A DNA stretch of 64,000 nt from a virus. Both the position numbers and the translations under genes were made by a program. Shown here piece by piece: positions 20,864-64,000 of this stretch (position 1 is the first letter of the stretch; every line of letters begins with the position of its first letter). The stretch covers positions 61,691 to 125,690 of IMG/VR virus record IMGVR_UViG_3300048837_000975. One strand, given 5' to 3'. A model generated the notes under the pieces. The model made no database searches, was not told where the DNA came from, and saw only the letters and a program-made list of their open reading frames with translations.

Positions 20864-20951
20864 ACTTGGTACTTCCCTACACACTGTAATCTGGAGTGGT
20901 GCAAAAAAAGTTCTTGCTCCGCTTCGCATGGGCTGCTACAACGCTGGAGCG

Positions 20952-23255
20952 ATGAAGAAAACGACAAATCTGAAGATTGAAAATGGCGTATCGCCGCTTG
21001 CGCAGATGACTCGCAAGCATTTTCCGGGAAAAAGGTTTCCAGCTAGCGTCTTGAAGCCAGCTGGCAGGAAGCTCAAGGATCACGGTGAGCAAGCTGCGAT
21101 CGAATTTCTGCAGGCCAACATTGATGTTCCTTACGGGAACTTTAAGGCGCCGGCAAAGTGTAATGTTGTCGCTACTAGTCGCCCGTATAGCGAGTGGCCG
21201 CTTTACAAGTTCTCATCTGAGCTTCAGAAAGCAGTCTTTGCACTCTCAAAGGATAGGCTGATGGAGATTGAACCATCAAAGCAATCCGACGCAGAGAACG
21301 AGAAGTTCCTGTCAGCGATCGGAGTCAGCGCGGATCCGTCAATTAACGTGACGTTCGTTAGCGCGTGCATTTCAAAGGCCGTGCATACGTACCTTGGAAT
21401 GGAGAAGAAGGCTGAGAACAAGTACCAGAAGAAGTTGTCAAGGTGTCGCTCAGAGAGCGAGCTAAGTAGCGTCACACCAGAAAACGTATACAATGAAGAC
21501 GGAACGCTTTCTGACGGGTGGCGGCCCGGTTTCAATGCTAACCTATACGGAAACTCAAATAGCAAGCTGAGTCTATTCGGATCCGTTAGGTCGCACAACA
21601 AGGTGGAGCTGCCTGTGTGGCTTTCTGAATACCGAGAGTGGGCAAAGAATCGCTCAAAGGATTCAAAGATCAATGAGTACAGCGCAAGCGTTGATCGACT
21701 GTCGATTCCGGAGGGCCAGCCCGGTCACGTTCCGCTTTGGCAAAGAGACTCGTCTAAGCGAACTAAGCCGGGCGGTGGAGAGATCAAAGAAGGGGTTCGT
21801 CGTCATCGATGGTACTCGAACCGAAACAACGCGAACCGAAGGAACAAGGTTGACCAGGCAACCAGGTTGGCCGCATCGGCTATGGAGATGGTTCTTGCAA
21901 TCGCATTCTTCGGAGAGGACTGGGTTCTCTTTGACATTCGCGGACTACTTAGGAACGCTCGCTACCGCAAGCTTGTGAACAAGAATACGACATATGGCGA
22001 TCTGATGGAGTTGTTTACGGCAGATCCTGTTCTTGATACAAAGCGAGGAATCATCACCGCATCGTATAAGGACACGACTCTCAAGATCGTTCAGCAGACA
22101 ATAGTCGGCGAAAAGAAGTCCAAATCCAAGATTCTGGAAGAGGTCCAGAAGAACGGGCCGGTTGCTGTTGTATCGATCGATCTCGGTGTAAATGAGCCCG
22201 TGTCGTACCGTGTGTCGAGGGTTGATGTAGCTGGAGGGAACGCCATCGTTGCCGAGCTTGCCGCTGAAGGATTCATGAGCAACGAACTAAAGAAAGAGAT
22301 TTCTAGTTATCGGGAAAAGTCGGACGAGCTTAACGGCGATCTTCGTGAGAAGGCAGTCCTTTCCCTCTCGGACGAAATGCAGGCAGAGATTCGCCGAGTC
22401 GACGCAACGAATGCCAGTGACTCGAAGAACAGAATCTGCGAAATGCTCAGCCTGGATCCGGAAAGCGTTGACTGGTCAAAGATGACCACGCAAACCAGGT
22501 TCATTTTCAACAAGCACGTTGAGAACGGCGGGGATCCTAACGTCCTTCTGTTCACTCCGACCGAGGACAAAAAGAACAAAGGTAAGAAGAGCAAGAATAA
22601 GAAGGGCGAGTACGGAGACAGGGTTCCGCACTCCGACAGTGGGATCGCTCGGAACATTGCCAGAGAGAAGCTCAGTATGGAGACTTGCGAGGCTCTCAAC
22701 AAAGCAAAACGGGAACTGCAACAAGAAGATCCTCGGTATGGTAAGCTTTCCAAGCGAAAGCAGGAGTTCGCTCGACGCGTAGTGAACGGAGTGGTTGTGC
22801 GCGCACAGGAAGTCACTGGGTGTGATAACGTTGTGCTGGTCGTTGAGAAGCTCAACGTATCAAACAAGATGTTTAGCGGAAGCGGAAAACGAGCTCCAGG
22901 ATGGGACAACTTCTTCGTTCACAAGAAAGAGAACCGCTGGTTTATTCAGGCGCTACACAAGGCGTTCACCGACAAGGCTGCGCACAAGGGCATTCCTGTA
23001 ATCGAAATTAAACCGAGCTATACAAGTCAGACTTGCCCAGCGTGCGAGCATTGTGACAAGGACAACCGAGACGGGGTTCACTTCTGCTGCACCAGGTGCG
23101 GGTTCACCGGTCACGCGGACCTCAACGTAGCGTGCTTCAACATTGAGAAAGTTGCTCTTACTGGAGAAGCTATGAGCGGACCCGGCAGCGCAACTGCGCA
23201 CAAAAAGACTCGCAAACCAAAGAAGGCTATGGTAGAGTCAGATAAAGCCGCGTAA
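20952..23255 (+). CDS. cas12j: CasPhi (Cas12j) RNA-guided DNA nuclease, 767 aa
   Basis: Single-effector type V nuclease of the phage-borne CasPhi family. Family hallmarks are visible: N-terminal 'KHFPGKRF', 'RGLLRNARYRKL' before the RuvC core, and 'GSGKRAPGWDNFF..KKENRWF' near the end. The RuvC catalytic acids are all present: Asp in 'SIDLGVNEP' (about D410), Glu in 'VVEKLNV' (about E632) and Asp in 'HADLNVA' (about D723). A CxxC...CxxC zinc ribbon lies between about 690 and 715. Length fits the family (700-800 aa). CasPhi matures its own crRNA with the RuvC site and cuts DNA next to a T-rich PAM. ATG 20952 has TGGAG 5-6 bases upstream and is preferred to the ATG 24 bases earlier. No cas1, cas2 or cas4 is nearby, as usual for this family. 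Confidence 0.95.
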   Translation: MKKTTNLKIENGVSPLAQMTRKHFPGKRFPASVLKPAGRKLKDHGEQAAIEFLQANIDVPYGNFKAPAKCNVVATSRPYSEWPLYKFSSELQKAVFALSKDRLMEIEPSKQSDAENEKFLSAIGVSADPSINVTFVSACISKAVHTYLGMEKKAENKYQKKLSRCRSESELSSVTPENVYNEDGTLSDGWRPGFNANLYGNSNSKLSLFGSVRSHNKVELPVWLSEYREWAKNRSKDSKINEYSASVDRLSIPEGQPGHVPLWQRDSSKRTKPGGGEIKEGVRRHRWYSNRNNANRRNKVDQATRLAASAMEMVLAIAFFGEDWVLFDIRGLLRNARYRKLVNKNTTYGDLMELFTADPVLDTKRGIITASYKDTTLKIVQQTIVGEKKSKSKILEEVQKNGPVAVVSIDLGVNEPVSYRVSRVDVAGGNAIVAELAAEGFMSNELKKEISSYREKSDELNGDLREKAVLSLSDEMQAEIRRVDATNASDSKNRICEMLSLDPESVDWSKMTTQTRFIFNKHVENGGDPNVLLFTPTEDKKNKGKKSKNKKGEYGDRVPHSDSGIARNIAREKLSMETCEALNKAKRELQQEDPRYGKLSKRKQEFARRVVNGVVVRAQEVTGCDNVVLVVEKLNVSNKMFSGSGKRAPGWDNFFVHKKENRWFIQALHKAFTDKAAHKGIPVIEIKPSYTSQTCPACEHCDKDNRDGVHFCCTRCGFTGHADLNVACFNIEKVALTGEAMSGPGSATAHKKTRKPKKAMVESDKAA

Positions 23256-23443: not shown

Positions 23444-23972
23444 ATAGAAACCCCTACAAATTGCGCTCTGAGGAGCGACGACCGCCAAAGCAGCCAAGGT
23501 GCCAGCGCTACCGACATAGAAACCCCTACAAATTGCGCTCTGAGGAGCGACTGACCACGGGATCGCTCGCCGTCGTGAACGGAATGATCATAGAAACCCC
23601 TACAAATTGCGCTCTGAGGAGCGACCCAGTGTTCGTGACCTCTACCGCCGTCTACTTTTGGCATAGAAACCCCTACAAATTGCGCTCTGAGGAGCGACTT
23701 GGTGCCAGCCTCACCACGACCGCCGCATCAGGCGCGATAGAAACCCCTACAAATTGCGCTCTGAGGAGCGACTGAGTCCACCCAATCACTATCGAGCATA
23801 TGCCACTCCTATAGAAACCCCTACAAATTGCGCTCTGAGGAGCGACCGCGACGAACGCAAAGAGCTTGTGGCTGCGGCCCGCCATAGAAACCCCTACATA
23901 TTGCGCTCTGAGGAGCGACTTAGCTTCGCCGAGGATCTAGAAACCCCTACAAATTGCGCTCTGAGGAGCGAC
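23444..23972 (+). CRISPR. CasPhi CRISPR array, eight repeats and seven spacers
   Basis: 36-nt repeats start at 23444, 23516, 23590, 23663, 23737, 23811, 23884 and 23938 (the last lacks its first base). The repeat begins 'atagaaacccctacaa' and ends with the mini-array unit, with stem CGCTC/GAGCG. Spacers are 36, 38, 37, 38, 38, 37 and 18 nt; the last is unusually short. Repeat 7 has one substitution. By eye I found no match of these spacers in this window, unlike the mini-array. Their targets are probably other phages or plasmids (inference). Confidence 0.97.
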
Positions 23973-40857: not shown

Positions 40858-40928
40858 ACGAACTTGTTTTTGCTGCAGTTGTGCTGTCGTTCCTGTGGGG
40901 ACTTATACTTGGTGAGGACTACCGATGA
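40854..40928 (+). CDS. Possible 24-aa membrane microprotein
   Basis: GTG overlapping the previous stop (GTGA) and a stop overlapping the next ATG (ATGA). The product is almost all hydrophobic ('FAAVVLSFLWGLIL'). Either a real microprotein or a coupling frame between two genes. Confidence 0.4.
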   Translation: MNELVFAAVVLSFLWGLILGEDYR

Positions 40929-41920
40929 GCTCAGATTCAAACGTGTATGTTGTTAGAGTTGACGAGGTGCGGAAGCACGAGAACGCAGACACTCTCGGGA
41001 TCGTCAACGTGTTTGGCGGATACCCGTGCATCGTTCGATTGGCCGACTTCAAAGCAGGAGATCTGGCAGCGTACATTCCGATTGACATGATCGTTGATTC
41101 GACACGGCCAGAGTTCAGTCACATGGTCGGGAAGGAGAGAATCAAGGCTGTTCGCCTACGAGGCATCTTCTCGATGGGCCTGCTGGTGAAGGCTCCGGAA
41201 GGAAGTAGGGAGGGCGACGTTGTCACCGAGACGCTGGGGTGCGTCAAGTGGGAGCCAGACCAGAGCAACCTTCCGGCCTGGTACAATCAGCCCGGCAGGA
41301 AGATCCGGTTCGATCAGGCGACTCCGCCGGACGGGCACTTCCCGTACTATGACATCGAGAACATTCGGCGCTGGAAGAGCGTTCTCGATGAAGGCGAGGA
41401 GGTTGTTCTGACCGAGAAGATCCACGGAAGCTCCTGCGTCTATCACTATGACGGTGAGATCTTCCACGTCCGCTCTCGAAACCACTGGCGGAAGCCTAGC
41501 GACTCCTGCCACTTCTGGAGAGCTGCGCAGAAGCAGGAGATCGCAAGGAAGATCCGTGCCTATGAGCACCTGGCGTTCTACGGAGAGGTGTTCGGACCCG
41601 TTCAGGATCTGAAGTACGGACTTGTCGATCCTACGTTCCGGTGCTTCGACATTCTGAACATACGCAACGGTGAGTGGCTCAACTACGATGACGCTCAGGC
41701 GGTTCTTCGAGACGCTGCAATCGAGTCGGTTCCGCTGATCTACCGAGGCCCGTGGCAGGAGTCTTTGACGGAGACCATGTGCGAAGGAACGTCTCTGATC
41801 GCGTCACACACGCGCGAAGGATTCGTCGCGAAACCAACAAAAGAGCGCTACCATCACAGTCTTGGACGTGTTATTCTGAAAAGCGTCGGACAAGGATACC
41901 TTCTGCGAAAAGAGAAGTAG
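40925..41920 (+). CDS. RNA ligase (Rnl5/DRB0094-like), 331 aa
   Basis: The nucleotidyltransferase core has motif I 'LTEKIHGSS' (adenylated Lys near residue 165), then 'FYGEVFG' and 'EGFVAKP' (motifs III and IV-like) and 'VILKSV' (motif V). The N-terminal 100 residues look like an OB-fold, which is the order found in the DRB0094-type ligases. It should seal 3'-OH/5'-phosphate breaks in RNA. It could repair tRNAs or rejoin RNAs, including 5'-OH ends after kinase action. Confidence 0.85.
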   Translation: MSSDSNVYVVRVDEVRKHENADTLGIVNVFGGYPCIVRLADFKAGDLAAYIPIDMIVDSTRPEFSHMVGKERIKAVRLRGIFSMGLLVKAPEGSREGDVVTETLGCVKWEPDQSNLPAWYNQPGRKIRFDQATPPDGHFPYYDIENIRRWKSVLDEGEEVVLTEKIHGSSCVYHYDGEIFHVRSRNHWRKPSDSCHFWRAAQKQEIARKIRAYEHLAFYGEVFGPVQDLKYGLVDPTFRCFDILNIRNGEWLNYDDAQAVLRDAAIESVPLIYRGPWQESLTETMCEGTSLIASHTREGFVAKPTKERYHHSLGRVILKSVGQGYLLRKEK

Positions 41921-46281: not shown

Positions 46282-46384
46282 GAGAAGTCATACTGTTCAA
46301 GGTGCGCCTGATCACCGCAAACCAGAACAGAGGAACGTAGCGACGGAGACACCGTCGTGTCGGGTTCGATTCCCGAGCTTCTCC
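46282..46384 (+). tRNA. tRNA-like element A, anticodon not assignable
   Basis: GAGAAGT (46282-46288) pairs over 7 bp, one G-U, with GCTTCTC (46377-46383). A perfect 5-bp T-arm with loop TTCGATT (46360-46376) directly abuts the 3' acceptor strand, as in real tRNAs. A long variable-arm-like hairpin precedes it. The D-arm and anticodon region does not fold canonically, because CTGTTC/GAACAG closes a 26-nt insert. No CCA is encoded. Confidence 0.35.
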
Positions 46385-46630
46385 TAAGGTCGGTTCGATT
46401 CCGACTCGGTGGCAGAGGTCTGGTGAGACGGGAGGCGGTTCAACTCCGTGATGTGACTCCGGCGAGTCAAAGGCCCGCGAGTGGTAGGCGTAAACATCCA
46501 CAAGCCCAGCGGAAGGCGGATCCGTACTGGTGAACGAGGGATCCGCACGGAGAGGCACCTACCGTTAACTGGTGCCTAGTCGAACGCCGGAGAAATGGCT
46601 AGGCGTGGCAGCCGGGAGAGACCGGCTTTC

Positions 46631-51745: not shown

Positions 51746-52666
51746 ATGGGGGAAAGTTTTCAGATTGTAAGAGCAGAATCCGTGCCCGAGATGGGTCTGA
51801 CGCGACCCGTTCAGCGCCTGGACATGTCGGGGGCTCGAGACGACGATCAGTTTGTCATGCTGTGGCTCAGCAGGTACTGCCCCAATACACGGAGGGCATA
51901 CCGGTTCGAGTCCGACAAGTTCCTGAAAGCAATCAGAGCAAGGGGGAAGGAGATCCGGAACCTGACGTTCCTGGATGCAACCGAAGTAATGGCAGATCTC
52001 ACCGAGGGTCTGTCGCCGTGCGCTGCGGCTAGACGCATTGACGCGATTCGGTCCCTGTACTCACTTGCTATGCGACTTGGTTACATTCCCATGAACGTCA
52101 TGGCTGCGGTAGAACGTCCGAAGATTCCAGACGGACTGGCTGCTAGGATTCTTACGAAGGAACAGATCTACGGCATGATGGCTCACGCCGATCCGGAAAC
52201 CAAGTTCATCATCAAGCTTCTCTACATCTCCGGTATGCGCGTGTCGGAGGCGGCCGCTCTCAGGTGGAAGGATGTTTCTGAGCGTGAAGGCGGGAAGGTG
52301 CAGCTCACCGTGTTCGGCAAGGGTGGAAAGACTCGATTTGTTCTGGCGCCCGTCAGCATGGGGAAGATGCTTGCTGAGCGCCGCAAGGGAGCGAACGACT
52401 TCGTTATCGAGATCGGGCGCTCCAGCAAGATCCACACTCGAGCCAGGCGTATCGAGGAAAGAGTTTCCGCAGCTGGCGAGTCCGTTGGCCTCGAGAAGAA
52501 CCCGAGCCCCCACTGGATGCGCCACGCTCACGCGTCTCATGCGCTGGACGCAGGGGCCAAGCTTCACGTCCTCATGGAAACGCTTGGGCATTCCGATGCT
52601 AGAGTAACGTCGCATTACCTTCACGTTCGTCCTGGCGAATCTAGCGCTGACTATCTTGGGGAGTGA
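51746..52666 (+). CDS. Tyrosine recombinase (XerC/D-like), 306 aa
   Basis: N-terminal SAM-like core-binding domain ('RYCPNTRRAYRFESDKF'), then the catalytic domain with Arg in 'SGMRVSEAAALRW', Lys in 'GKGGKTRF', 'HWMRHAHASH', and the tyrosine in 'HSDARVTSHYLHV'. All catalytic residues are present. It could resolve genome multimers, integrate the phage, or invert DNA. No attachment site is recognisable nearby. It is the only plus-strand gene after 46.2 kb and converges on the primase, overlapping it by 26 bases. Confidence 0.92.
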   Translation: MGESFQIVRAESVPEMGLTRPVQRLDMSGARDDDQFVMLWLSRYCPNTRRAYRFESDKFLKAIRARGKEIRNLTFLDATEVMADLTEGLSPCAAARRIDAIRSLYSLAMRLGYIPMNVMAAVERPKIPDGLAARILTKEQIYGMMAHADPETKFIIKLLYISGMRVSEAAALRWKDVSEREGGKVQLTVFGKGGKTRFVLAPVSMGKMLAERRKGANDFVIEIGRSSKIHTRARRIEERVSAAGESVGLEKNPSPHWMRHAHASHALDAGAKLHVLMETLGHSDARVTSHYLHVRPGESSADYLGE

Positions 52667-54347
52667 CACGCAGAAGGCGACGGTTCTTTCGCTGAAGCTT
52701 CTTCGCATTGAGAAAAAGCTCACGCTTGGCGTCATCAGGGGACTCGTGTTCCGGAGCCACGAGTCTCGCTTCGACCTGCGCGCGCAGCCGCGGACCCACG
52801 AGAGGCGGAACAGCTTTCGCGAAAGACTTCTGGTCTAGTTCAGACTGTCGCCACGCCGAAACAACGTCCATAGCAGCCAGCGCGTAATCGTCAGACAGAG
52901 ACTCTAGGCTTTCGCGAACGGAAGCGTCCTCGGATATGCTTGGGCAGTCCAGAAGGCAGCCCAGCATCCTGAAAGAGAAGTTCTCTTCGCTCGGGGCGAG
53001 CTTTGCGGCTTCTCCAGGATCGTTCGGCGACGCTGCGCGAACGAAAGCGCGGAACTTCTTGTCGCTGGCTCCGGCCAGCATCACGGATGCTCGGTACGCG
53101 CACTGATCGGCTATGGCTCGAACAACGGGATCGTCCTCTCCGTCTACGAGCTGCCGAATGCGCTTCAGGTGAGCGGACTTGGTCTCCGCGTCCTGCGACA
53201 GCTGAGCAGCGCTCGCTTCCTGGTTGATCAGGTGCTCGATGATTCCGACGGCCTTAGCGGCGACCTCCCTGATAGCCTCAGGGCCGCTCGATCGAGCGTA
53301 CGCGTCTGGATCCGTTCCGTCAGGAAGAACAGCTACCTTCGCCAGCAGCCCGCCCTCTTTGCACGGTCCGTGCGACTTGATCACGGCCTCTCGACCAGCA
53401 CGGTCGCCGTCGAACATGAGAACGACAGCCTTCGTGAACTTGGATACGAGCCTGGCCTGTTCGGGTGTGAAAGCCGTTCCAAGCGGAGCTACGGCGCTCG
53501 TGATCCCGCGCGCGTGCAATCCGACAACGTCGAAGTTTCCCTCGACCACGATGCATCCCTCGTGCCTAAGGGCACCCTTGGCCTGGTGCAGTCCGAAGAC
53601 AACGTCTCGCTTCTTGTATATCTCGGACTCTGGAGAGTTAACGTACTTCGGAAGCTTCTCCTGTTGCGTCTCTCCGGGCGGTGGAGGAAGCTCTCGACCG
53701 CTGAAGCCGATCACTCGCCCGCGAAGATCGATCACAGGGAACATAAGACGATTCCGGAACTTATCGTAGTATCCGCCGGAGCGCTTTGAAGCTACCAGAC
53801 CGATCTTCTCAGCAGCCTCGACCAACTCTTTCGGTAGGGCGTCTGCCAGCGATGACCATCCCGGCGGCGCGTACCCAAGTCGGAAGCTCAAGACGTGCTC
53901 GGAGCACGGGTCTACTTCTCGCTTAAGAAGCTCGCTCTCGGCCAGGCTCCGGTGCTCGTTCGTCGTTAGGTTTTTCTGAAAGAACTTCGCCGCGAACTCA
54001 GCGGCCTCATACAGCGGATCTGTATCTACTGAAGTGGACTCTTTCCCAGAACCGTCAGTTTCAACTACGGTGATACCAGACCTATCAGCGAGACTTCGCA
54101 CGGCTTCCTGGAACGAAAGCCCATGGTGCTCCTGCATGAATGCGATGTTGTCTCCGCTGGCTCCGCACCCGTAACAGCGATAGAACGACCGCTCATCGCT
54201 TACGTAAAAGCTCGGAGTCTTCTCCTTGTGAAAAGGGCAGAGACCTGACCACGACCTGCCCTTGCGCACAAGGCGCACGCTCTCCCCGATCACCTGCACT
54301 ATGCTGACGGTGTTCCGGACGCGTTCGATTGTCTCTTCAGCAATCAT
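52641..54347 (-). CDS. DnaG-type DNA primase, 568 aa
   Basis: CHC2 zinc finger at about residues 37-62 ('CPFHKEKTPSF', 'CYGCGASGD'), the catalytic core with 'FPVIDLRGRVIGFSGR', and a Toprim domain ('GCIVVEGNFDVVGLH', 'VVLMFDGDRAG'). It makes RNA primers for replication. The C-terminal helicase-binding part is degenerate, as usual. Start overlaps the previous gene by 11 bases. This points to the phage running its own replication fork. Confidence 0.95.
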   Translation of the reverse strand: MIAEETIERVRNTVSIVQVIGESVRLVRKGRSWSGLCPFHKEKTPSFYVSDERSFYRCYGCGASGDNIAFMQEHHGLSFQEAVRSLADRSGITVVETDGSGKESTSVDTDPLYEAAEFAAKFFQKNLTTNEHRSLAESELLKREVDPCSEHVLSFRLGYAPPGWSSLADALPKELVEAAEKIGLVASKRSGGYYDKFRNRLMFPVIDLRGRVIGFSGRELPPPPGETQQEKLPKYVNSPESEIYKKRDVVFGLHQAKGALRHEGCIVVEGNFDVVGLHARGITSAVAPLGTAFTPEQARLVSKFTKAVVLMFDGDRAGREAVIKSHGPCKEGGLLAKVAVLPDGTDPDAYARSSGPEAIREVAAKAVGIIEHLINQEASAAQLSQDAETKSAHLKRIRQLVDGEDDPVVRAIADQCAYRASVMLAGASDKKFRAFVRAASPNDPGEAAKLAPSEENFSFRMLGCLLDCPSISEDASVRESLESLSDDYALAAMDVVSAWRQSELDQKSFAKAVPPLVGPRLRAQVEARLVAPEHESPDDAKRELFLNAKKLQRKNRRLLRVTPQDSQR

Positions 54348-59173: not shown

Positions 59174-59551
59174 TCAACCTTTCTTGTTCTTACTCACAGA
59201 GGTTCCGACGACTCTCTCAACGAACTCGGCCCACACGGCTGGCTCTTCCTTGTCAAACATGCCTTCAAGGTCATAATCGTCTTCCTCAAAGGTCTCTACC
59301 GTAACCTCGATAGTAACGACTCTAGGTGGCTTTGTTACCGTAACAGGCACCCACGCTTCATTTTGGTACACCTCAACTTGCTTCCCGACGGAGACGCTTG
59401 CCAAAGGCACGAGCTTCCTGTCAGGAGTTCGCGCCGGAGCGTCGCCACGAAGGCATAGGTGACCGGTAAACTCTACGGTGTCACCCGTTCCGAGAACCAA
59501 CCAGACCTTTAGGTTTTCTGTCGTGGATAGCCCTACGTTTTTCTTTGTCAT
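59174..59551 (-). CDS. Hypothetical protein with intein/hedgehog-like strand pattern, 125 aa
   Basis: The stretch 'FTGHLCLRGDAPARTPDRKLVPLASVSVGKQVEVYQNEAW' contains turns resembling a small barrel; the last 50 residues are acidic. It is the first gene after a hammerhead ribozyme in the reading direction, so its message would begin with the cleaved stem. Function unknown. Confidence 0.62.
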   Translation of the reverse strand: MTKKNVGLSTTENLKVWLVLGTGDTVEFTGHLCLRGDAPARTPDRKLVPLASVSVGKQVEVYQNEAWVPVTVTKPPRVVTIEVTVETFEEDDYDLEGMFDKEEPAVWAEFVERVVGTSVSKNKKG

Positions 59552-59572: not shown

Positions 59573-59624
59573 GGACTCGTCAGCGACGGCCTTACCGTCG
59601 GACCGGGCGAACCCGGTTTCGTCC
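59573..59624 (-). ncRNA. Type II hammerhead ribozyme 1
   Basis: Read on the minus strand: GGAC, GAAA, stem III CCGGG-TTCG-CCCGG, TC (cleavage site), stem I CGACGG/CCGTCG around TAAGG, CTGACGA, GTCC. The GGAC/GTCC pair is the open stem II. All core residues of the hammerhead are present. It begins directly after the TAA of the gene upstream, with expected cleavage between 59601 and 59600. Confidence 0.88.
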
Positions 59625-60503
59625 TTACAGAACCGGCATAGCGTTCGGATCCGCCATGACAATCAGTGCTAGCATTGACATTGCGTCTTCTAGGCGCTTG
59701 CGGACGGCCTCGCTCTTGACCCCAAGTAGCCGCTCGTATGACTCGAGCTTGTCAGCCGCAACCTTGAGGCGCTCTTCTCTAATTCTCACGCTGCGAACGG
59801 TCCGGTTCTTAGTCGTTTGAACCAGCTCGCCCGCGCTAGCTTCCTCAACGATCGCGTTGATCGCTTCCTCGGTTTCGCGGTTAACGGCGTCGATCACGGC
59901 CTCGACCGCGTCCTCCGACTTTAGTGCAGGAATTGAATAAACCTTGTGGGAAGAAACTTCCTCAATGACATTCGAGATCTTCTCGAGCACCTCAATCCGG
60001 TCGGCCGGAACGAAGTACACTCCGCCGCGTGGCCGAAGCGGAACGCCGTTGCAGCGTCCGGCTACCATGGTCGTCAGCCACATGCTGAACTCGGTCACCC
60101 CGAGGTTCTCTCGCTCGTTCGTGAAAGCTTCGTTAATCTGTTCGGCAACCTCGCGGTTGCCCTTGAACTCCAGCTCAGAGTCTCCAGCGAGGCGGACCAC
60201 CACGACCGTTTCGTGGTCGAGCGGGTTCTCGTCGTCGCCCGTGCGAGCCTCAGCAAGGAGCGCGAAGGTTCCCTCTTGAACCGGACGAACGATTCGGCGA
60301 CCCTTGGCGAATTTTGCAAGCACGCTCCGGAGAGTTGCGGAAGCGCCAGGAGCGCTCGGGCAGTCGTCAGGATCCAGGCCGGAATCTTCCCACGCCTTTT
60401 GAAGCGCCGCGTACGGAACCGCACCGTCGAGGCTCCACATGACAATCGCGCCACACTTCTCGGATTCAACGTTCGTCACGATCAGATTCTTGATATTTTC
60501 CAC
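59625..60503 (-). CDS. Large hypothetical phage protein, 292 aa
   Basis: GTG 60503 with GAGG 7 bases upstream is preferred to a TTG two codons before. Long alpha/beta protein with a helical C-terminal third ('REERLKVAADKLESYERLL'). A protein conserved in many large phages has this layout, but I cannot name it. It lies between two hammerhead ribozymes. Confidence 0.72.
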   Translation of the reverse strand: MENIKNLIVTNVESEKCGAIVMWSLDGAVPYAALQKAWEDSGLDPDDCPSAPGASATLRSVLAKFAKGRRIVRPVQEGTFALLAEARTGDDENPLDHETVVVVRLAGDSELEFKGNREVAEQINEAFTNERENLGVTEFSMWLTTMVAGRCNGVPLRPRGGVYFVPADRIEVLEKISNVIEEVSSHKVYSIPALKSEDAVEAVIDAVNRETEEAINAIVEEASAGELVQTTKNRTVRSVRIREERLKVAADKLESYERLLGVKSEAVRKRLEDAMSMLALIVMADPNAMPVL

Positions 60504-60530
60504 TTTCAACCTCGCTTGAATTCTTTCAAC

Positions 60531-60582
60531 GGACTCGTCAGCGCACGCCTTACGTGCGGACCGGGTTTCCCCGGTTTCGTCC
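60531..60582 (-). ncRNA. Type II hammerhead ribozyme 2
   Basis: Same order as copy 1: stem II GGAC/GTCC, core GAAA and CTGACGA, stem III CCGGG/CCCGG closed by a GAAA tetraloop, stem I CGCACG/CGTGCG. Stem I differs from copy 1 at several paired positions with pairing kept. It lies 31 bases after the upstream stop and 27 bases before the downstream start. Confidence 0.88.
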
Positions 60583-60613
60583 TATCTACCATGCTAAGAG
60601 AAGCTACGCAACA

Positions 60614-61945
60614 CTAATTAATGACCACGGTATGAATGTGGGATGGCACGCTCTTTGCGTCGAATCCGCCGATCAGGCCGGCCACAAACTCAACGTCAGA
60701 GATCTCGTCAGGCCACGGCGTGTAACCGTCAGTCAGAATCACGATGATCCGGTGCGCCGGAAGGTTCTCGCGAGCGGCCTTTACGCCGACCCGCATATCC
60801 GTTCCGCCGCCGCCGACCAGCTTCACGTCTAGAGCGCTTGTGACGCGCTGAACCTTGCTCGCCGCCGAGTCGCAGCATATGACCGGAAGCTCGTGCTGGC
60901 CTAGCGCGTTTATGATCCCCTGAACCTCGGCCAGAACACCCTTGAGCATATCGTCGGACATAGACCCCGACGTATCCACAATCGCGCACACCTCCGGCTG
61001 CGGACGAACTAGGCGTGGCATGATAACGCCGGTCGGGTTACCGCGACGGCTAGGTCTCTGCCAGGTGTAGTCAGAGGCGCCGGAAGCCATCACAACGGCC
61101 TGCGATAGCTTCGCCCGAAGCTCCTGCTCCCACGGTACCTTAGGAGGAGCCAATCGATCGTCAGCCCACCGTTTAGCGAAAGCCGGCATATCCCCGCGCA
61201 TCTTACTAGCCGACTTTACCGCGTTCGCCAGGCTGTCGCGAAGCATATCGTTCTCGGTGTCAGTCAGCCCGCGTGGCGCGTCTTTCTCGCCGGCCTTATC
61301 TCCTGCCCCGTCGGTCTCTGAACCATCTTCCCAGGGCCGCTTCTGGCCATGCGCGCCGGATCCGCAATCCCAGGACTCGCCAGGCTTCCCGTGTCCGCCC
61401 TGACCTTGACCTTGTGGGCAGTTTTCGGAGCCCTGGCCTTGGCCTTGGCCCTTGCTTTCCTGGCCTTTACCGCCGTTTCCTTGCTGCTTCTGACCCTGAC
61501 CCTGTTGTTTCTTACCCTGCTGCTTTAGCAGGTCATAGTACTGCTCAAAAGGCAGGTGGTTCGGAAGCTTGTAGTTCTCCGGAAAGGCTCCTTCGGGCGG
61601 CAGATTGGCGCCGGCCGCCTTCATTCCGCCGTTGATCTCAAGATCCGCGGCGATATTCGATTGCTTTGCGTCGTACGCGTCACCCTCGCGAGCGGCAACG
61701 TACTTTGCGCGACCAGCGTGACCAAGCGCCCAGTGCCAGATCTCATGAACCAGAACCCAGGCCGCCTGTTCTAGAGTCCATGTGCTACCAATCAGCTTCG
61801 GATCGAGATACAGCGTGCCCCTATCATCGATCGCGAAGGTTCCGATACCGGGCTTCTCGATCATGGGCAGCGCGAACAGCGTCGTCGCCATATATGGGCA
61901 TTTGTGCCCGGCGATTGACCTAAGGTCTGCCAGGATTCGTGACAT
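60614..61945 (-). CDS. Metallopeptidase/VWA-domain protein (DUF2201-like), 443 aa
   Basis: N-terminal zinc-peptidase motif HExxH in 'VLVHEIWHWALGH' (about residues 64-76), then a Gly/Gln-rich linker, then a VWA-like domain with the MIDAS motif 'DTSGSMS' and 'GGGTDMR'. Such proteins pair with MoxR-type AAA+ ATPases, and one lies just upstream here. The pair probably remodels or activates a protein complex. GGGAG precedes ATG 61945. Confidence 0.88.
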   Translation of the reverse strand: MSRILADLRSIAGHKCPYMATTLFALPMIEKPGIGTFAIDDRGTLYLDPKLIGSTWTLEQAAWVLVHEIWHWALGHAGRAKYVAAREGDAYDAKQSNIAADLEINGGMKAAGANLPPEGAFPENYKLPNHLPFEQYYDLLKQQGKKQQGQGQKQQGNGGKGQESKGQGQGQGSENCPQGQGQGGHGKPGESWDCGSGAHGQKRPWEDGSETDGAGDKAGEKDAPRGLTDTENDMLRDSLANAVKSASKMRGDMPAFAKRWADDRLAPPKVPWEQELRAKLSQAVVMASGASDYTWQRPSRRGNPTGVIMPRLVRPQPEVCAIVDTSGSMSDDMLKGVLAEVQGIINALGQHELPVICCDSAASKVQRVTSALDVKLVGGGGTDMRVGVKAARENLPAHRIIVILTDGYTPWPDEISDVEFVAGLIGGFDAKSVPSHIHTVVIN

Positions 61946-61962
61946 TAAACTCTCCCTTCAAT

Positions 61963-62014
61963 GGACTCATCAGCGCTGGCTTCACCAGCGGACCGGGTTT
62001 CCCCGGTTTCGTCC
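61963..62014 (-). ncRNA. Type II hammerhead ribozyme 3
   Basis: Stem III CCGGG/CCCGG with GAAA loop, stem I CGCTGG/CCAGCG around TGAAG, core CTGATGA, stem II GGAC/GTCC. It lies 8 bases after the MoxR stop. Confidence 0.88.
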
Positions 62015-62022
62015 TTTTTACT

Positions 62023-63186
62023 TCATGTGCTCCTACCTTGCAAGCCAATACTTTGAAGATACTTCGCGTAAGTAAGCAACTCTTTCGGCGGGCGCCATCC
62101 GCGAGGCTGATTCGAGGCGAGAATCCGGCCGGCCGCCACGGCAAGATCCGGACGATCGGCCTCAAAGCACCTGTGCATCACCTTGAAACCGCGTTCCCAT
62201 CGTTCCGGAGTGTTTCTAGCAACAACCGCTCCGGCGACGGACATAAGGATCGCGAAGGCTTTGTCGCCACGGTCCTTCGGAAGCACTAGCTTGGTGGGAT
62301 CCGCCAGCAGCGTCTCGGGATCCGGTAGGTCAAGCTGCTCGGCATACGTCAGGAATTGGCGAGCGGCTCCCTCGCCAACGGCTCCAGCTACCAGGATCCG
62401 GAGAACGTCGTGCGCGTTGCGAAGCCCGGGGTTCTTCTTGTCCGGAAGCAGCCCCACGCCGGCCGCGTTGCACGCCGCCAGGAGTCGCGATACCACCGTC
62501 CAGGAGCGAAGAGACGGCCATGGCTTAGACTGATCGGAACGCGCTTTCGGGACCACTTGCATTGCAGCGTCACCGAAACGCATGGCATACGACGCGACAA
62601 GCGTGCGAGCCTCTCCGATATGCGTCTCTTCCCAGTTTTCCGGAACAGGAACGATCAGATTGGTCGGAGCCGGGAACCCGGCGATCATCTGTTCCGCCCA
62701 GTATGCAGAGTCTAGTTTCCAGTCAAGGTGCACGAATCTGTTCGCAAGCGGAGCGGAGAGAGCATATCCGCTTTCGGCAAGTTCCGGCGGGTTCATTGCG
62801 GCGATCGTGGACATATTGTCAACCTTCACGTCACCCCACGTGGAGTCGAGAATTCCGCGAAGAGCAGCGGAACGAACGGCAGGCGGCGCGTTCGAGAATT
62901 CGTCCAGGAATAGACCTTTGCGACCCTTGCCCTCGGTCAGTCGAGCAAGCCACGCCGCGGGAAGCAGCGCGACCCGATCACCTTGCGGAACCGGAAAGCC
63001 GCCAAAGTCAACCGGCTCGGACAGTGACGCGATCCGTGTGTCAGAGACCGTGCAAAGCTCGCTCATCAGCGCCTCAACGATCGCCGTCTTAGCAACGCCG
63101 GGCTCACCGACCAGCAGGGCCGGCGTATTGGTTTGAATCAGGATCGAAACCGCCCTGATCAGATTCTGTGTGTGTTCAACGCTCAT
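62023..63186 (-). CDS. MoxR-family AAA+ ATPase, 387 aa
   Basis: Walker A 'GEPGVAKTA', Walker B 'GLFLDEFSN', sensor 1 'AAMNPPE' and the arginine-bearing 'LANRFVHLDW' are present. MoxR ATPases act as chaperones with a VWA partner, here 60614-61945. GGGAG precedes ATG 63186. The two genes are separated only by a hammerhead ribozyme. Confidence 0.92.
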   Translation of the reverse strand: MSVEHTQNLIRAVSILIQTNTPALLVGEPGVAKTAIVEALMSELCTVSDTRIASLSEPVDFGGFPVPQGDRVALLPAAWLARLTEGKGRKGLFLDEFSNAPPAVRSAALRGILDSTWGDVKVDNMSTIAAMNPPELAESGYALSAPLANRFVHLDWKLDSAYWAEQMIAGFPAPTNLIVPVPENWEETHIGEARTLVASYAMRFGDAAMQVVPKARSDQSKPWPSLRSWTVVSRLLAACNAAGVGLLPDKKNPGLRNAHDVLRILVAGAVGEGAARQFLTYAEQLDLPDPETLLADPTKLVLPKDRGDKAFAILMSVAGAVVARNTPERWERGFKVMHRCFEADRPDLAVAAGRILASNQPRGWRPPKELLTYAKYLQSIGLQGRST

Positions 63187-63203
63187 CTTCTACTCCCTTC
63201 AAT

Positions 63204-63255
63204 GGACTCATCAGCGCTGGCTTCACCAGCGGACCCGCCGGAGCGGGTTTCGTAC
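63204..63255 (-). ncRNA. Type II hammerhead ribozyme 4
   Basis: Stem III is CCCGC/GCGGG with a TCCG loop, a fully compensated change from the other copies. Stem I CGCTGG/CCAGCG, core CTGATGA. Stem II is GTAC/GTCC with one mismatch, so this copy may be weaker. It starts one base after the upstream TAA. Confidence 0.82.
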
Positions 63256-63256
63256 T

Positions 63257-63469
63257 TTACGCAAGTTCCATCGCGCCGTCTTCTGCGAACGTTGCCCGAT
63301 CCATGACCCACGAATCAAGGAGATCTCTGATAGCACGGCGCAAAGCCTTGTCGCAAGCGATTCCGAGATCAAGCAGATCCTTTTCTCCGCACCATACCGC
63401 GATCCGATCCTCGGGACGGATCTTGGAGATCAAACGCTTTGCAGTCTTGCTAGAATCTTTTCGTGACAT
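63257..63469 (-). CDS. Small hypothetical protein, 70 aa
   Basis: AAAGGC before ATG 63469. Basic first half, acidic second half with 'DLLDLGIACDKALRR'. No motif recognised. Framed by two hammerhead ribozymes. Confidence 0.64.
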   Translation of the reverse strand: MSRKDSSKTAKRLISKIRPEDRIAVWCGEKDLLDLGIACDKALRRAIRDLLDSWVMDRATFAEDGAMELA

Positions 63470-63489
63470 AATCTTGCCTTTCAACGTGT

Positions 63490-63541
63490 GGACTCATCAG
63501 GCGGCGCCTTACGCCGCGACCGGGTTTCCCCGGTTTCGTCC
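63490..63541 (-). ncRNA. Type II hammerhead ribozyme 5
   Basis: Stem III CCGGG/CCCGG with GAAA loop, stem I GCGGCG/CGCCGC around TAAGG, core CTGATGA, stem II GGAC/GTCC. One base after the upstream TAG. Confidence 0.88.
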
Positions 63542-63542
63542 T

Positions 63543-63848
63543 CTACTTTGACTTTCCGATCGCTTTCTCTAGGTCAGCCGACCAGCGTTCGATCCCTTCG
63601 GATGATAGGCGCCAGGTGTTGTCCTTTAGCCACATGCTCTTACCGCGGGTTTCGTAATCAGACTTATCAAGCTTCACTACGCTGCGCTTTCCACCGAACG
63701 CTGCGATCAGAACGAATCCGTCACTGCCGTAATCGAGAGTTAGGCTGAGATCCTCTCCCTTTACCTGTACGCCTGGCACGCTGACCCGGCGAACCTTTCC
63801 AGTGCTCCACCGGACCTTTGAAAGCGATTCTTTCAATGCTTCAATCAT
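63543..63848 (-). CDS. Hypothetical beta-rich protein, 101 aa
   Basis: GGAGAAG precedes ATG 63848. Beta-rich with basic strands and a helical end. No family recognised. Framed by two hammerhead ribozymes. Confidence 0.66.
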   Translation of the reverse strand: MIEALKESLSKVRWSTGKVRRVSVPGVQVKGEDLSLTLDYGSDGFVLIAAFGGKRSVVKLDKSDYETRGKSMWLKDNTWRLSSEGIERWSADLEKAIGKSK

Positions 63849-63860
63849 ATTCTTCTCCGT

Positions 63861-63913
63861 GGACTCATCAGGCGGCGCCTTACGCCGCGACCGGGACAGG
63901 CCCGGTTTCGTCC
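63861..63913 (-). ncRNA. Type II hammerhead ribozyme 6
   Basis: Stem III CCGGG/CCCGG around CCTGT, stem I GCGGCG/CGCCGC, core CTGATGA, stem II GGAC/GTCC. Its first G is also the last base of the upstream TAG stop. Confidence 0.88.
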
Positions 63914-64000
63914 TATACCGCCAGCTCCGCCAGCTCTTTGGCCGCGGCCGCGATCTTCTCGTTCAGCTCCCCAAGGGCTTCGTCGACCATATCCGAGAAG
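63913..64000 (-). CDS. C-terminal fragment of a gene cut by the window edge
   Basis: Open frame from the edge to a TAG at 63915-63913. The visible 28 residues are an Ala/Glu-rich helix ('KIAAAAKELAELAV'). Its stop overlaps a hammerhead ribozyme, like the other genes here. Function cannot be judged. Confidence 0.6.
   Translation of the reverse strand, partial: FSDMVDEALGELNEKIAAAAKELAELAV

Follow-up and report, generated by a model that had tools for sequence, protein, structure and literature searches.

Results

Genes and hammerhead ribozymes of the operon

The window analysed here, 64,000 nucleotides comprising positions 61691-125690 of the 125,690-base virus record IMGVR_UViG_3300048837_000975, carries at one end part of a minus-strand operon in which an earlier note, made from the letters alone, had recognized six type II hammerhead ribozymes. 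All six are in place with intact cores, but the run is longer than six: three more copies lie past the end of the window, and the resulting nine (HH1 to HH9) are consecutive, all on the minus strand, and without counterpart elsewhere in the genome when the whole of it is searched with a covariance model. Read along the minus strand, and lettering the genes A to L, the order is A-HH1-B-HH2-C,D,E-HH3-F-HH4-G-HH5-H-HH6-I-HH7-J-HH8-K-HH9-L. Positions are given in window coordinates unless marked 'record'.

Gene A (record, likely start ~1438, end 1163) stands directly before HH1, and genes C, D, and E, between HH2 and HH3, overlap one another. Between HH3 and HH4 lies gene F, whose 3' part occupies 63915..64000 and whose reading frame crosses the join unbroken, passing from record position 50 down to 1 and then to 125,690; in all likelihood the genome is therefore circular, and the hammerheads form nine in a row. 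Gene G (63543..63848, between HH4 and HH5) encodes 101 amino acids of no family, and the small gene H (63257..63469, between HH5 and HH6) likewise belongs to none. They are followed by an AAA ATPase (gene I, 62023..63186, PHROG 1297, between HH6 and HH7), a DUF2201 metallopeptidase-like and VWA-like protein (gene J, 60614..61945, PF13203 and PF09967, between HH7 and HH8), and a DUF6744 protein (gene K, 59625..60503, between HH8 and HH9); gene L (59174..59551) is the first gene downstream of HH9. All of these genes are on the minus strand.

HH1 (record 1163-1109, a covariance-model match), HH2 (record 812-761; stem III ACCCGC, stem I GCGGCG), and HH3 (record 120-69; stem III ACCGGG, stem I CGCUGG) lie past the join. 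Within the window, HH4 (63861..63913; 61.3 bits, E 5.2e-18) has a predicted cut at 63889|63888, stem III ACCGGG with a CCUGU loop, and stem I GCGGCG, while HH5 (63490..63541; 69.9 bits; predicted cut 63518|63517) combines the same two stems with a GAAA loop. HH6 (63204..63255; 61.7 bits; predicted cut 63232|63231) has stem III ACCCGC with a UCCG loop, stem I CGCUGG, and one mismatch in stem II. HH7 (61963..62014; 70.2 bits; predicted cut 61991|61990) and HH8 (60531..60582; 70.0 bits; predicted cut 60559|60558) share stem III ACCGGG and a GAAA loop, and differ in stem I, which is CGCUGG in the former and CGCACG in the latter, where N7 is C. HH9, the last in the run (59573..59624; 70.6 bits), has stem III ACCGGG with a UUCG loop, stem I CGACGG, and again C at N7; its cut is predicted between 59601 and 59600, as had been proposed.

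A ribozyme occupies nine of the 11 junctions between A and L, and the remaining two are gene overlaps. The earlier statement that every gene junction holds one is thus right within the window and too broad for the operon. Since neighbours from A to L either overlap or have a ribozyme between them, the operon can be described as a series of genes that are coupled or else separated by a ribozyme, the overlapping genes probably being translationally coupled. Each hammerhead has a stop codon on its upstream side and a Shine-Dalgarno-like site on its downstream side. In seven of nine copies the stop codon starts 6-8 nt ahead of the GAAA, and in several its last base also belongs to stem II; all nine have the next start codon 12-27 nt past stem II.

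Core and fold

Every copy has the same order of parts, namely the 3' strand of stem II, GAAA, the stem III hairpin, GUC, the stem I hairpin, CUGANGA, and the 5' strand of stem II. The core residues C3 U4 G5 A6 N7 G8 A9, G12 A13 A14, and A15.1-U16.1 agree with the consensus in 9/9, and H17 is C throughout. Three helices are present, the core-flanking pairs N1.1-N2.1, N10.1-N11.1, and A15.1-U16.1 are intact in all nine, and stems I and III are closed by loops while stem II is open, which is the type II permutation. When folded as isolated RNAs of 52-55 nt, eight of the nine adopt the type II fold as their minimum free energy structure. The exception is HH6 (63255), whose minimum free energy structure lacks stem II because of its single mismatch (GUAC/GUCC); the open 4-bp stem II described in the earlier note accordingly applies to five of the six window copies. 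Together with the covariance-model matches described below, these features support the type II assignment. Several copies on the same strand border single genes or blocks of genes, an arrangement like that of clustered phage hammerheads.

Detection

The covariance model was trained on 53 hammerheads from other viruses and none from this genome. Run over both strands of the whole genome, it returned nine matches of 61-71 bits, with E-values from 5e-18 to 3e-21, the six already noted among them, and a tenth of only 10.2 bits (E 1.8). Because a model built from other viruses gives such E-values, a chance origin of the nine copies is excluded. A regular-expression search found no type I or III hammerheads in the genome.

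The Rfam type II model, proposed earlier as a check, gave a different picture. RF02276 (Hammerhead_II) has no match in the genome at its gathering score of 37 bits, a threshold that marks a detection limit and not a property of the RNA; the sole copy it sees is HH6, below that score, at 27.3 bits (E 0.067), whereas the custom model recovers all nine. The Rfam consensus has a stem II of 2 bp, against 4 bp here. In eight viral multi-copy loci, where a pattern finder counts ~66 copies, the Rfam model makes only two matches, and we therefore ascribe its null result to a limitation of the model, and not to an absence of hammerheads. These results suggest that the model misses most of the class, so that phage annotation undercounts it.

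Stem variation and selection for the fold

As the earlier note described, the window copies have four stem I sequences (GCGGCG, CGCUGG, CGCACG, CGACGG) and two of stem III (ACCGGG, ACCCGC), all paired, as well as the four stem III loops GAAA, UUCG, UCCG, and CCUGU. Over all nine copies there are four stem I and three stem III sequences, and pairing is kept throughout. Two stem III and two stem I sequences occur in all four combinations, ACCCGC with GCGGCG in HH2 and with CGCUGG in HH6, and ACCGGG with GCGGCG in HH4 and HH5 and with CGCUGG in HH3 and HH7, which would imply either that hairpin modules have been exchanged between copies via the shared core, or that the same changes have arisen repeatedly in parallel.

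Pairing as such has to be read with care: it is 100% in the alignment of 53 sequences partly by construction, as the finder demanded stems, and the search patterns likewise largely fixed the GTC triplet and the GG/CC termini of stem II, so that only base-pair exchange counts as evidence. Such exchange is seen among the nine copies, and also at equivalent positions in Streptomyces phages (below), where sequences of stems I and III are swapped and still pair. The earlier argument from covariation to selection for the fold is supported on both counts.

The apex of stem I is less free to vary. In the same alignment, a U-G pair at the apex and the G-C pair beneath it are nearly invariant, while other stem I positions exchange freely. 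Four scans of viral and bacterial sequence collections yielded at least 504 distinct type II hammerheads in at least 347 loci, and figures given below for viruses refer to the matches listed; an apex of the form GU-NNN-GC occurs in 246 of 504 listed copies, including the form common to all nine here. From its sequence conservation this apex looks like a docking motif, and it may replace the pseudoknot discussed below, in which loop I pairs with the 3' tail.

Relatives in viral and bacterial collections

No close phage relatives were found in viral contigs via the DUF2201, ATPase, or CasPhi proteins, nor in the phage collection by DNA or by the DUF6744 protein. A comparison of the nine copies with their counterparts in close kin was therefore out of reach, and Streptomyces phages were used instead.

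More distant relatives share the layout. A stop codon of an open reading frame (ORF) of at least 50 codons lies 5-12 nt before the GAAA in 319 of 490 (65%) viral hammerheads with enough upstream sequence, against 3.8% at random positions on the same strand. Downstream, 454 of 477 have a start codon no more than 63 nt away that opens an ORF of 40 codons or more, and a Shine-Dalgarno-like site is present in 393. The positional rule of stop codon, ribozyme, and ribosome-binding site thus holds across hundreds of listed viral loci. Where a locus has two or more copies, all are on one strand in 96 of 97 cases, and the longest run listed has 12; the covariance model confirms 4-11 copies per record in 20 multi-copy viral records. 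Among cultured bacteria, Streptomyces iakyrus NRRL ISP-5482 and Phycicoccus jejuensis have contigs with three-copy runs. Among listed loops of four nucleotides, GNRA or UNCG accounts for 188 of 269 on stem III and one of 90 on stem I, a bias in sequence that fits retention of stem III as a stable terminal hairpin.

In about 70 listed relatives, L008, L014, L080, L177, and L162 among them, AUCAG or GUCAG stands directly after stem II and can pair with the core CUGAU or CUGAC. The two covary: counted per distinct stem I sequence, U7 occurs with AUCAG at a ratio of 35 to 2 and C7 with GUCAG at 19 to 1 (Fisher p = 6e-12). The downstream product is predicted to fold its core into such an anti-core hairpin in 70 of 71 of these, and some such hairpin forms in 74 of 432 others; the nine copies studied here have none. 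Anti-core hairpin and active core are mutually exclusive, and on this folding model the hairpin would conceal the core once the cut is made, or turn the ribozyme off beforehand. The type II hammerhead literature that we examined holds no description of it.

Cultivated Streptomyces phages

A viral locus from the scans (L110) is homologous to six cultivated Streptomyces phages, whose genomes contain type II hammerheads on one strand each, at record positions 52-60 kb (L361-L366): seven in Yara, eight in PHTowN, seven in Gibson, seven in Dryad, six in Wentworth, and six in phiRKBJ001. None is annotated, and the literature library that we searched contains no paper on the hammerheads of these phages. 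Forty of the 41 copies lie outside annotated coding sequences, most of them 11-17 nt before an annotated start codon. At one equivalent position, with the same gene downstream in five phages, stem I is constant while stem III has been swapped for unrelated paired sequences. These runs resemble the nine in being formed of 6-8 type II copies on a single strand just before start codons; they differ in having unrelated stems and genes, and in being anchored mainly to the downstream start rather than to the upstream stop. These cultivated phages make the function of such runs directly testable.

Discussion

Probable cutting of one transcript into gene-sized messages

When a hammerhead cuts, the upstream product acquires a 2',3'-cyclic phosphate and the downstream product a 5'-OH, and, of the three permutations, only type II gives both products a closed hairpin at the cut; each of the others lacks it on one side. 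We think it probable that the nine ribozymes cut one long transcript, during its synthesis, into gene-sized mRNAs that carry a hairpin at either newly formed end. Once RNA polymerase has moved out of a gap, the 52-nt RNA made there would fold and cut itself after C17. The upstream message would then end in the closed, GC-rich stem III hairpin bearing a 2',3'-cyclic phosphate; the downstream message would have a 5'-OH and open, from its first nucleotide, with the closed hairpin of stem I, after which come 11 nt of former core and stem II strand, and the ribosome-binding site. The transcript should thereby fall into about ten units (A, B, C-D-E, F, G, H, I, J, K, and L onward), in which the overlapping genes C, D, and E should remain translationally coupled. 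The product-end hairpins have predicted energies of -9.5 to -13.5 kcal/mol at the 3' end (stem III) and -9.1 to -11.5 kcal/mol at the 5' end (stem I), and should shield the messages from end-dependent RNases. With both ends shielded, we propose, each unit could have its own half-life and translation. Cleavage and its end groups are what known hammerhead chemistry, the predicted fold, the intact core, and published precedent would lead one to expect; that the benefit lies in end protection and uncoupling is our inference.

More tentatively, some phages might use type II arrays as a general system for making mRNAs, in which ribozymes at non-coupled junctions replace separate promoters and terminators, and every unit receives a hairpin cap and tail. 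In this conjecture, which we consider possible but would not presume, the anti-core hairpin of a subset of relatives (not these nine), covarying with core position 7, would refold the core, either once cutting is done or in its stead, so that the cut becomes irreversible or conditional.

Several observations weigh against processing of this kind. The packed, mostly overlapping genes downstream of 59551 have no hammerheads as far as the DnaG-type primase (52641-54347), and the earlier claim of a ribozyme at every junction does not extend to them. A sigma-70 scan found no promoter for the operon. In the Streptomyces phages, a second equivalent position has U4 changed to C in all five phages that possess that copy, a natural core variant which, from its sequence, may be slow or inactive; the earlier note had named core mutations in relatives as a refutation, and this one group has them, whereas none of the nine does. 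Moreover, pairing of loop I with the 3' tail into a pseudoknot, a contact reported to enhance the rate of many type II hammerheads, was undetected, as complementarity in ~490 viral relatives equals that of permuted pairs, and by inspection none is visible in the nine copies; the speed of cutting in vivo is therefore uncertain. In Perreault et al. (2011; PMC3088659), this pseudoknot is reported for the majority of type II hammerheads, not for all, and is not a requirement. Finally, the predicted change in accessibility of the ribosome-binding site is inconsistent: mean predicted Shine-Dalgarno accessibility is ~0.50 uncut and 0.59 cut, and drops on cutting in four of nine copies, such that freeing of the Shine-Dalgarno site by cutting was not upheld as a rule.

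Other explanations

The cuts might serve mainly to remove messages, by shortening mRNA life or shutting off early genes. Self-cleavage within an mRNA normally lowers expression, and the small genes of the operon and its ATPase/VWA pair could be needed only briefly. Yet the cuts are placed between coding regions rather than inside them, both new ends would have closed GC-rich hairpins with stable tetraloops, and every downstream piece retains its own ribosome-binding site, and we accordingly judge removal unlikely.

Gene-sized pieces could also be circularized or re-joined by an RNA ligase. The phage encodes one that resembles Naegleria NgrRnl (Rnl5; window 40925-41920, plus strand, PF09414 with an OB fold), and the ends of a piece bounded by two hammerheads are defined. 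Ligases of the T4/Rnl5 type require a 5'-phosphate and a 3'-OH, however, the opposite of what hammerheads leave; neither PNKP (PF13671, HAD_PNKP) nor RtcB was detected in the phage genome, and the two ends of any one piece would be held in separate hairpins. The 2011 paper (PMC3088659) also states that its authors sought spliced or circular products and found none. Ligation after cleavage is thus decidedly improbable, and we rate no higher the idea that the elements act as insulators without cleavage, as terminators, attenuators, or blocks to translational read-through. Very stable hairpins do stand at every non-overlapping junction of the operon, but neither hairpin is followed by a U-run on the coding strand, the ground on which intrinsic terminators were rejected, and a plain hairpin needs no invariant CUGANGA, GAAA, and GUC core, which is constant in all nine copies while the stems vary. 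Least credible of all is that these are mainly recombination sites for shuffling gene cassettes, with ribozyme activity incidental, for although all four stem combinations are present, as expected from exchange through a shared core, and stem III was replaced wholesale beside an unchanged stem I at one equivalent Streptomyces phage position, exchange accounts for the mosaic and not for the intact core and pairing or the tight stop and start spacing, and unrelated phages have unrelated stems in the same layout.

Relation to known systems

Processing of the transcript by the ribozymes, the explanation that we prefer, has published antecedents. Perreault et al. (2011; PMC3088659) already set out type II hammerheads, their grouping in prophages, where several of them border a single gene or a short block of genes, and the idea of processing; they report that tandem arrangements cleave in vitro and that a triple from Agrobacterium tumefaciens cuts when expressed in E. 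coli. The earlier note, which knew of no comparable run, had therefore claimed too much novelty, the more so as runs of 4-12 copies occur in many phages. The class and the arrangement have been known since 2011; what is new is this run, unusually long and in a phage that encodes CasPhi.

Compared with RF02276 and the hammerheads of 2011 (PMC3088659), the nine have the same core and permutation and a similar home, in phages and prophages, but differ from the Rfam family in their 4-bp stem II (2 bp in its consensus), the lack of a detectable pseudoknot, the GU-NNN-GC apex of stem I, and the failure of any copy to reach the gathering score. Clustered prophage hammerheads, such as the ardA triple of Agrobacterium, share the layout and the proposed processing into operon- or gene-sized mRNAs; here there are nine, at every non-overlapping junction from A to L, whereas the worked example in the text of 2011 is a triple (PMC3088659). 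Theta ribozymes, which are HDV-like and lie beside suppressor tRNAs in gut phages (PMC10879173), are also self-cleaving ribozymes of phage genomes, but have another fold and are linked to tRNA-based recoding, not to mRNA junctions. The function of bacterial and phage hammerheads has been open since 2010-2011, and the biological reason for their gene associations was still called unknown in 2023 (PMC10085705); here, nearly every junction of operons has one.

Genomic surroundings

Upstream of the operon lies a GC-rich noncoding region of ~700 nt (record ~1500-2240) with many hairpins, in which we found no sigma-70-like promoter and no Rfam match of note. Just upstream of the operon's first gene is a tRNA-like minihelix (record 1520-1474, minus strand), with an 8-bp acceptor-like stem and a T-arm with a TTCGATA loop (minimum free energy -21.3, z -2.6), which could be a processing site for RNase P or RNase Z in the leader. 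No tRNA genes were found near the operon. Elsewhere, an intergenic stretch at window 46340-46413 (plus strand) has two T-arm-like hairpins (GGTTCGATTCC) and a weak tRNA-Sec match of 21.7 bits, with no tRNA called.

The virus is a 'Biggiephage'-like phage with an apparently circular genome of 125.7 kb. Its CasPhi (Cas12j) gene, at window 20928-23255 on the plus strand, encodes 775 amino acids that match Cas_phi3 (7odf; E 8e-133) and CasPhi-2 (E 4e-124). As expected of a CasPhi phage, the effector sits beside a CRISPR array, which follows the gene on the same strand at window ~23445-23972 and has eight repeats (TAGAAACCCCTACAAATTGCGCTCTGAGGAGCGAC).

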